Positions 32,235 to 48,818 of a stretch of DNA of 64,000 bases are shown in pieces. The stretch's first letter is position 1; each line of letters starts with the position of its first letter. The translations under genes were made by a program, and so were the position numbers. The notes under the pieces were generated by a model, which saw nothing but the letters and a program-made list of their open reading frames with translations, did no database searches and was not told where the DNA came from. The stretch is taken from contig MWYZ01000085.1 in the NCBI GenBank assembly GCA_002050365.1, positions 62,001 through 126,000 on the forward strand. Reading direction: 5' to 3'. The DNA is from Acidobacteria bacterium 28-1 (GTDB lineage Bacteria; Acidobacteriota; Blastocatellia; Pyrinomonadales; Pyrinomonadaceae).

Positions 32235-34154
32235 TTGGATATAATCGTCGGCACCGCCGGACACATTGACCACGGGAAAACCGCGCTCGTTAAAGCCTTG
32301 ACGGGCGTTGATGCCGACCGTCTGCCTGAAGAGAAAAAGCGCGGCATCACCATTGACATCGGTTTCGCCGAACTAGATTTGGGCGCGGTGCGGATTGGGT
32401 TCGTTGACGTTCCCGGACACGAAAGATTCGTCAAAAATATGCTCGCCGGAGCAAGCGGAATTGACCTCGTTGCGCTCGTCGTCGCGGCGGATGCGGGCGT
32501 GATGCCGCAGACGCGCGAGCATTTTGAAATCTGCCGCCTGCTAGAAATAAAAAGCGGTTTGATTGTGCTGACGAAAATTGATTTAGTTGACGAAGAATTG
32601 CTCGAACTCGTCCGCCTCGAAGCGGCGGAACTCGTCGAAAACTCTTTTCTGGAAAATGCGCCGGTGATTGCCGCGAGCGCGAAAACCGACGCGGGCATCG
32701 CGGAATTGAAAGAAACTCTTAAAAAACTCGCGCTCGAAATTCCCGCTCGAAAAAACGAAACCGTTAGCTTTCTGCCGATTGACAGAAGTTTTTCCGTCAA
32801 AGGCTTCGGCGCGGTAGCAACAGGAACTTTAGTTTCGGGCAAAATCAACGAAGCCGACGAATTAGACGTTCTACCGCTCGGAAGAGCGGTTCGCGTGCGC
32901 GGTTTGCAAACGCACGGAAAGTCAGCTAAAACCATTCGCGCCGGACAGCGGGCGGCGGTTAATCTCGGCGGCATCGAACACGCAGAAATCGAGCGGGGAA
33001 TGGTTTTGGCGGAAAAGGCTGTTTTACGTTCGACGCAGATTTTCGACGCGCAAATCGAAGTTTTGAAAGATGCCAAAAAAAGTTTGAAAACGCGCCAGAG
33101 AGTTCGCGTTCACATCGGCACGATTGAAGCGTTGGCGCGTGTGCAAATTATTAACGAACAAAATGAAATTGCGCCGGGCGAAAGAGATTTTGTGCAGCTG
33201 CGACTTGAAACACCGATTGTCTGCGTTCCTAATGAAAGATTTATTATCCGCAGTTACTCGCCGCAAATCACGATTGCCGGCGGACGCGTTTTAGATAATT
33301 CAGCCCAAAAGCATCGTCGGCGAGACGCGGAAACTGTTAAAAAACAGCTTGAAAAATTAATTGAAGCCGAAAACGACAAGGCAAAGCAAACAAAATTGCG
33401 ACTTGAGGCGGCAGTCGAACACGGCTTAACTTTCGCCGATTTGCAGGCGCTAACCGGTTGGCGCAGAGAAATTCTAAAAAAAGCAATCGCCGAAAACGTC
33501 GAGAACAAAGCGATTATCGAAGCCGAAAGTTTTTTCGTCGCGCGAACGCCGTTTGAAAATCTGAAGGCAAAAACTTTTACGGCAATCGAAAATTTTCACC
33601 GCCAAGAACCGCTCGCCAAAGGAATGCTGCAGGCAACTTTGCGCGAAAAAATCTTTGCTCATTTTCCCGCAGAAATTTTCAAAGCCGTTCTTTCAAATTT
33701 AGAACGAGAAAACAAAATTGCGACGGAAAAGGATGTTGTCAAACTTGCCGCACATAATCTCGATTTGTCGAGCGAGGAAAAACTTTTGCGCGAAACGCTG
33801 CAAAAAATTTACCGGACGGCAAAATTGGAAGTTCCGAAACTCGAAGACGCTTTAACCGAAGCCATCAAAAACACAAAATCGGATAAAAATCACGCCCGAA
33901 AAATTTTCCAACTGCTTTTAAATTCAGGCGAACTTGTAAAAATTACCGACGAATTTTACTTCCCAAAGACGGAAATCGAACGCTTGATTCTGAAAATTCA
34001 GGAATCTGCGGCGAAAACGGATGACCGTTTGATTGACGTTTCAGTATTCAAAACAATCGCAGGCGTCTCGCGCAAATACGCGATTCCGCTACTCGAATAC
34101 TTTGACCGCGAAAAAATCACGAGACGCGCGGGCGATAAGCGTCTGATTTTGTGA
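32235..34154 (+). CDS. selB: Selenocysteine-specific elongation factor SelB
   Basis: 639 aa. It delivers Sec-tRNA to UGA codons marked by a SECIS hairpin. G-domain motifs are GHIDHGKT (9-16), DVPGHERF (near 60) and TKID (near 115). Domains II and III lie at about 175-350, and the SelB-specific C-terminal winged helices (about 390-639) that bind SECIS are present. The canonical N-terminus begins at a TTG (32235); no ATG fits. No selA, selC or selD is within view. Its relevance is direct: the gene at 43417-44013 has an in-frame TGA at a catalytic Cys position. Confidence 0.94.
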
Positions 34155-43416: not shown

Positions 43417-44013
43417 TTAGATTGCTCCGGCTCGTTCGACCAACATTTTGAGATTTTCAAAAGGCTGAACGCCGCTCAATGCAAATTTTCGATTCGCCAC
43501 AAACGCCGGAACGCCGCTCAATCCTAATTTTTCAGCTTCGCGTTCGTCTGTGATGATGCTCTTTTCAAATTCTCTGCTTTCGAGCGCACGGCGTAAGGAA
43601 TCAATTTCCAAATCTAATTTTGAAGCGAGAGAAACCAGGACTTCTATTTCACCGACGTTTTCGCCGCGTTCAAAAAAGGCGCGGAAAATCGCGGCGTTCA
43701 TCGCTTCAAATTTCCCCTGCGTTCGCGTCCAGTGCGCCGCTTCGTGCGCGAGGCGCGAGCGCGGTTGGAGGGGCGGAAGTTTCATCGTGATGCCCATATT
43801 TTTCGCCATCGGATAAACCGAACTGTTCCAGACGCGCAGGAGATATTCACCGTCGGGCGGCAACGTCGGAACAGGGTCAGGGCGTAGTTCAAATGTCCGC
43901 CAGATGATTTCGATGTTCGATTCCGAATTGACCAATTCGGTTACGGCAGGTTCTGCCAGCCAGCAGAACGGTCAGACGTAATCCGAAAAAATTTCGATGG
44001 TTACTTTTTCCAT
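43417..44013 (-). CDS. DsbA/FrnE-like oxidoreductase, probable selenoprotein
   Basis: 198 codons from ATG 44013 to the stop at 43417-43419, with an in-frame TGA (codon 14, 43972-43974). Reading the TGA as Sec gives FSDYV-U-PFC-WLAEP, the FrnE-type thioredoxin active site with Sec14 and Cys17 in place of CPFC. The frame continues through the DsbA helical insert to the cis-Pro loop GVPAFV (Pro169) and ends SGVQPFENL. AAGGAGAAGT directly precedes the ATG, so the ribosome starts before the TGA. Ordinary calling would begin at the TTG at 43935 and lose the active site. selB (32235) is in the same window. The alternative is a nonsense mutation of TGC, but it would have to hit precisely the catalytic Cys. 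Confidence 0.88.
43923..43971 (-). promoter_or_regulatory. Candidate bacterial SECIS hairpins after the TGA
   Basis: Two perfect 7-bp hairpins follow the TGA. The first, 2 nt after it (43950-43969), is GTTCTGC, loop TGGCTG, GCAGAAC. The second (43923-43940) is CCGAATT, loop GGTC, AATTCGG. GGUC is the loop of the E. coli formate-dehydrogenase SECIS. The first hairpin lies closer than the usual UGA-loop distance and the second slightly farther (38 nt). Which one SelB uses, or whether they stack, cannot be told from sequence. Confidence 0.6.
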
Positions 44014-44085
44014 ACTTCTCCTTTTTCGCTCATTTACCATTTATTTTATCTAAATGCAATCAAATCTTTTGTCGTGTGTCAGACA

Positions 44086-48115: not shown

Positions 48116-48818
48116 ATGATAAACATCAGACGAAGCGGCGAGCGTGGCGGCGGAAATTACGGCTGGCTCGACACGAAATATACATTTTCATTTAACAATT
48201 ATCACGACCCGCGATTTATGGGTTTTCGCAATCTGCGCGTGATAAACGAAGATTGGGTTGAAGCGAATCAGGGTTTCGGAACACACGGACACTCTGATAT
48301 GGAAATTATCACTTTTGTAATGAGCGGCGAACTCGCGCATAAGGACAGCAGCGGCGGAAGCGAGGTTCTGCGCCCGCACGAAGTTCAACGAATGACTGCC
48401 GGAACGGGAATTCGGCACAGCGAATTTAATCCGTCGAAAACTGAGAAAGTTCATCTTTATCAGATATAGATTTTGCCGGAAGCCAACGGTTTAGAGCCGA
48501 GTTATGAGCAAACTTTTTTCGCGCCCGAAGCCAAAAAAGGGAAACTCAAACTCGTCGCCTCGCGCGGCGGAGCCGACGGTTCGGTAAAAATTAATCAAGA
48601 CGTAGCCGTCTATAGCTCAATTTTGGCAAACGGCGAAGCGGTTTCGCACCAGCTCAAAGAAAATCGTCACGCCTGGCTGCAAGTCTTCAAAGGTTCACTC
48701 GATTTAAACGGACAAAACCTTAAAGCAGAGCGACGGAGCGGCGATTAGCGATGAAGAAATTTTAGAGATAAAATCGCTCGAAGACGAAACGGAATTTTTG
48801 TTGTTCGATTTAAACTAA
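48116..48818 (+). pseudogene. Pirin-family protein, two inactivating lesions
   Basis: Pirin/YhaK-type cupin gene broken twice. The N-terminal frame has the GFGTHGHSDMEIITFVMSGE metal site but ends at TAG (48467-48469), exactly where relatives have Trp in YQIW-ILPE; TGG to TAG is one base. The same frame continues as ILPEANGLEPSYEQTFF. Near 48732 one extra base breaks the frame, after which the family C-terminus (ISDEEILEIKSLEDETEFLLFDLN) is readable in another frame to TAA at 48816-48818. Pirins are iron cupins; this copy is probably not functional. AAGGAG still precedes the start, so the decay is recent, or the lesions are sequencing errors. Confidence 0.8.

Follow-up and report, generated by a model that had tools for sequence, protein, structure and literature searches.

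An acidobacterial FrnE-like gene with an in-frame TGA at its catalytic cysteine position: a probable UPFC selenoprotein

What can a stop codon mean when it falls exactly where a DsbA-fold oxidoreductase should have its catalytic cysteine? The question is raised by a gene on a 64-kb stretch of DNA (hereafter "the window") from a 4.1-Mb draft genome (90.9% complete, 109 contigs) of a member of the Pyrinomonadaceae, in the phylum Acidobacteriota. As far as sequence can tell, this is very probably a genuine selenoprotein gene, in which UGA14 would be translated as selenocysteine (Sec) through SelA, SelB, SelC, SelD and a SECIS element, the predicted product being a cytoplasmic FrnE-like oxidoreductase with a UPFC active site.

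An earlier, sequence-only reading had placed the gene at 43417-44013, which is right; the strand, which it left unstated, is the minus strand. The ATG start occupies 44013-44011, with AAAAAGGAGAAGT directly 5' of it, and opens a run of 13 codons in all up to the TGA, after which come 184 sense codons and a TAA at 43419-43417. The features on which the argument turns are the following:

43417-44013, minus strand: coding sequence of a FrnE-like DsbA-family candidate selenoprotein, 198 residues with predicted Sec14 and Cys17 (read-through translation, PF01323, FrnE structures)
44018-44024, minus strand: Shine-Dalgarno-like AAGGAGA 5' of the ATG (sequence)
43972-43974, minus strand: in-frame TGA, codon 14, putatively read as Sec (sequence; TGA or a Cys codon there in 33 of 33 homologues)
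43929-43974, minus strand: putative bacterial SECIS, lower stem UGACC.UUC / GAA.GGUCA plus apical hairpin (pair probabilities, sister gene L017, family-level test)
32235-34154, plus strand: selB, selenocysteine-specific elongation factor (TIGR00475, 1.4e-116, 390.5 bits against a cut-off of 242; SelB winged-helix domains)

The ATG with its AAGGAGA and the single TGA at codon 14 are thus as first described. With TGA rendered as U, the N-terminus reads MEKVTIEIFSDYVUPFCWLAEP..., the immediate context of the codon being MEKVTIEIFSDYV-U-PFCWLAEP, and C17 is the only cysteine of the 198-residue product. Standard ORF calling recovers at this locus only a TTG-started ORF of 172 residues (43935-43417), whose start lies 26 codons inside the gene and which has neither strand 1 nor the active site; the truncation reported earlier is real. 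Since TGA is the normal stop of 6 of the 26 window genes inspected, there is no general change of the genetic code.

The read-through protein belongs without difficulty to the DSBA family. PF01323 is matched at E=6.5e-35 (121 bits against a cut-off of 25.6) over residues 5-189, corresponding to model positions 1-187 of 191, and the best matches among solved structures are the Deinococcus FrnE entries 5cnw and 5cp1 (E=5e-25, residues 2-188). SCO1869 (3gl5) is also matched over most of the protein (E=5e-15), while entries named DsbA rank behind both, at 3e-5. In the alignment the TGA occupies precisely the column of the leading Cys of CPxC, and U/C14, P15, C17, V168 and P169 are invariant among 19 aligned homologues, V168-P169 being the conserved VP of the cis-Pro loop. 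The proposal that the TGA occupies the catalytic Cys column, with the rest of the fold and the cis-Pro loop following in frame, is borne out by this alignment and by the nearly full-length Pfam match. By inspection no export signal is evident, the N-terminus beginning straight at strand 1. An AlphaFold model built from four sequences reached a pLDDT of 51, too poor for use. No NCBIfam model matches the protein above its cut-off, and, the called ORF being devoid of the active site, routine annotation would miss the protein or truncate it. Identity with the Rcas_1661 (seleno)lipoprotein family NF041057 was considered and rejected (33.1 bits against a cut-off of 190): that DsbG-like family, whose model spans 247 positions, also comprises thioredoxin-like UxxC selenoproteins, but it is a different one. 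Two further genes of the genome (G000:C34:7380-7832 and G000:C20:73179-73583) score above the cut-off for a DSBA domain, and both are free of internal stops.

Does the cell have the means to read UGA as Sec? The selB gene lies about 9.3 kb from the selenoprotein gene, in agreement with the SelB that had been noticed about 10 kb away. No tRNA was found in the 64-kb window by ARAGORN and no match by an Rfam scan, and selC was therefore sought across the whole genome, where it scores 70.3 bits against a cut-off of 47 and is called by ARAGORN as tRNA-SeC with anticodon UCA. The same genome encodes selA (555.8 bits against a cut-off of 267.9) and selD (355.7 bits). The absence of selA, selC and selD had been named beforehand as the result that would tell against a selenoprotein; all three are present. 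SelD appears to be a selenoprotein itself (L011:1491-2427, G000:C23:2112-3038): its gene has one in-frame TGA, in SCAGUVAKL, which is the classical Sec site of SelD, and the TGA is likewise found in the SelD of most near relatives. Among the Sec-bearing relatives tested, selA and selB exceed their cut-offs in nearly all, the exception being genome G101, with no selA match over the cut-off and a partial selB.

Another gene of the window, pirin-like and located at 48116-48469 (plus strand), has an in-frame stop in HLYQI*ILPE, after which the frame goes on for about 90 codons. Recoding was considered for this gene too and dismissed, the stop being TAG; the site presumably corresponds to a Trp of pirins. 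Either a nonsense mutation or an error of assembly accounts for this TAG, which is not a Sec codon.

The homologues offer a much wider view of codon 14. The set comprises 33 genes, drawn from 116 related genomes and from 396 genomes of the phylum that were searched with a profile. Within the 116 related genomes, three genus members (84, 82 and 80% identity) have the gene with a single TGA, as do several family- and class-level genomes, and two family members have TGC instead; the phylum-wide search contributed 10 more Sec and 4 more Cys homologues. Altogether, TGA stands at codon 14 in 24 of the 33 and TGC or TGT in the other 9, always in the same column, and P-x-C follows the U or C in every one of them. 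The phylum also has another, more remote clade of DSBA selenoproteins (L060-L065 and L069; UPWC, all with TGA), with a different hairpin, of the CUCAGUA-CCGUG-CGUAUUGAG type.

Could the TGA simply be a sequencing or assembly error in an ordinary Cys-type FrnE gene? The genome is indeed a draft in 109 contigs, and two near relatives have TGC at this codon, but TGA recurs in 23 further homologues, taken from separate assemblies, the three genus members at 80-84% included, and the Sec machinery of the genome is complete. Genomes obtained independently, at genus, family, class and phylum level, show the identical TGA; a sequencing error is thereby ruled out, and we give this explanation practically no credence.

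A real stop, marking either a decaying pseudogene or a restart at the TTG 26 codons in, would fit the 172-residue ORF of standard calling. Among genus members, pN is 0.00-0.05 over the 13 codons upstream of the TGA, with zero amino-acid changes in L018, and dN/dS is about 0.15-0.20 downstream of it (in L017, dS 0.57 and dN 0.10). Purifying selection is strong on both sides of the TGA, the part preceding it is almost constant in protein, and no other lesion was found in the gene. Moreover, the truncated form would be deprived of strand 1 and the CxxC, which constitute the catalytic core of the family. Genuine termination at codon 14 is accordingly most improbable, and what the homologues favour is that UGA14 is a sense codon, presumably for Sec.

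A bacterial UGA destined for Sec is expected to be followed by a hairpin, and the published bacterial SECIS model specifies a small apical loop 16-37 nt downstream of the UGA, with a G in its first two positions (PMC13188914). Most sister genes have such a hairpin, for example GGUUGGC-GGA-GCCAGCC, and its loop starts 17 nt past the UGA, within the published model. The stretch is at the same time part of a conserved coding sequence, for which reason 1000 synonymous-codon versions of every gene served for comparison. The hairpin is more stable than the encoded protein demands (negative z) in 23 of the 24 Sec genes, with a mean z of -1.53 (Wilcoxon p 1.8e-7, a value that ignores shared ancestry); the mean over the 9 Cys genes is 0.03, and the two groups differ at p 8e-5, relatedness being again ignored in this value. 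The same tendency is seen within one genus, where L034 (Sec) has a z of -2.1 and L033 (Cys) one of -0.5. Covariation counted on a fixed SECIS alignment with no gaps gave no usable information, because the stem register shifts between subclades. At the level of the family, a SECIS-like hairpin is shown. The complete structure forms in the fold of the sister gene L017. In the window copy, the bases of the lower stem pair with probabilities of 0.83-1.0, the homologous apical stem, which is interrupted by a U.U mismatch and by a C.A pair left open, lies only 0.3 kcal/mol above the minimum-energy fold, and the apical loop, CAGAA, begins 16 nt past the UGA with its G third, not in the first two positions. 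Its z values (+0.23 for the local hairpin, -0.62 for the 48-nt region) are among the weakest SECIS signals of the set, so for this copy the data are only consistent with a SECIS: the fold is possible, the signal weak and not beyond chance.

This weak signal is what could be invoked for a read-through of the UGA as some other residue (Cys, Trp or similar), with no selenium involved; nothing specific speaks for it. Against such a reading, TGA is the normal stop of neighbouring genes, the genome encodes tRNA-Sec(UCA), SelA, SelB and SelD, and the alternative codons of the relatives at this very site are those of Cys, as with other selenoproteins. We regard selenium-free read-through as highly improbable. 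The earlier proposal that Sec14 takes the place of the catalytic Cys, on the other hand, has gained from each line of evidence: the Cys-column alignment, the presence of selA, selC and selD, the independent conservation of the TGA, and the family-level SECIS. We infer from these sequence data that selenium is actually inserted at codon 14.

How would such an enzyme work? UGA14 would be decoded as Sec by the cell's own SelA/SelB/SelC/SelD, directed by the SECIS hairpin just downstream. Sec14 would then be the N-terminal residue that attacks the substrate disulfide, presumably making the enzyme more reactive, and Cys17 would resolve the mixed bond, leaving a Se-S bond that, by analogy with FrnE, may be reduced by the thioredoxin system or by low-molecular thiols. 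By the same analogy, its job may be to reduce or isomerise disulfides under oxidative or thiol stress. The most likely function, judging from the closest characterized relative, is that of a cytoplasmic thiol/selenol-disulfide oxidoreductase working like FrnE. Deinococcus radiodurans FrnE (DR_0659; 5cnw, 5cp1) is described as a disulfide reductase/isomerase of the cytoplasm that has a part in tolerating cadmium and diamide (PMC8945050); like the window protein, it belongs by sequence to the DsbA subfamily concerned and has no evident export signal, but its active site is CPWC (with Cys) where the window protein has UPFC (with Sec). It also has a C-terminal CX4C, thought to regenerate the enzyme (PMC8945050). 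This motif is absent from the window protein, C17 being its sole cysteine, so that the nature of its reductant is a guess. The FrnE proteins of S. roseofulvus and D. maricopensis are also without CX4C (PMC8945050), and the motif is therefore not defining for the FrnE subfamily.

The missing regenerating motif also leaves some room for a true selenoprotein with another role, such as the reduction of peroxides or organic hydroperoxides, or the detoxification of electrophiles or metals. Non-Dsb enzymes do exist among DSBA-fold proteins, and mutants of D. radiodurans FrnE are sensitive to cadmium and diamide (PMC8945050). We nevertheless hold such a role to be unlikely, if well worth keeping in mind: the [U/C]PxC of thiol-disulfide oxidoreductases is kept in 24 of 24 Sec and 9 of 9 Cys homologues, and the 19 that were aligned all have the cis-Pro loop.

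The described selenoproteins with which the FrnE-like window protein is best compared belong to COG2761, which we take to be the FrnE group. A Sargasso Sea study of 2005 reported DsbA-like UxxC selenoproteins of this COG (PMC1088965), which have since been counted in genomes (2006, PMC1794560), named "DsbA 1" in the GOS survey (PMC2398784) and listed in a 2026 review as "DsbA-like protein form 1", with PF01323 and UxxC (PMC13188914). They share with the window protein the PF01323 domain, a UxxC with Sec first, a predicted SECIS just downstream and widespread Cys homologues; on the surveys' own COG/Pfam assignment, the two are of the same subfamily. The surveys found them in marine metagenomes and, in genomes, mainly in Deltaproteobacteria and Clostridia, whereas the window gene is acidobacterial. 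SCO1869, a putative DsbA oxidoreductase, has the DsbA/FrnE-type fold in common with it, but is of the Cys type and more distant. UxxC DsbA-like selenoproteins having been described since 2005, the window gene is a well-supported further example of a described type. No literature account of a Sec-rich acidobacterial clade was found, and this clade seems to be the only little-described part.

On a tree of the 33 proteins, which has no firm root, five Sec/Cys changes are needed, at least four of them forced by well-supported branches. Around the window gene Sec is the commoner state, and the Cys forms are nested inside, in genomes that still hold selA and selB. Close orthologues differ in this way: L023 and L024 (TGC) from L016-L022 (TGA), and L033 (TGT) from L034 (TGA). 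All of them keep selA and selB, so that switching between Sec and Cys has occurred with the Sec trait maintained. It is conceivable, although we advance it only tentatively, that the FrnE-like clade of the Acidobacteriota was ancestrally Sec-based and that Cys is secondary, acquired repeatedly (four to five switches) while the Sec machinery was kept. If true, the usual picture, that of rare Sec variants inside a Cys family, would here be turned round. With the window gene, a selenoprotein family documented chiefly by marine surveys acquires an acidobacterial branch, and Sec/Cys pairs such as L034 and L033, within one genus, may serve to test both what a DsbA-fold enzyme gains from selenium and how a SECIS degenerates once Sec has given way to Cys.
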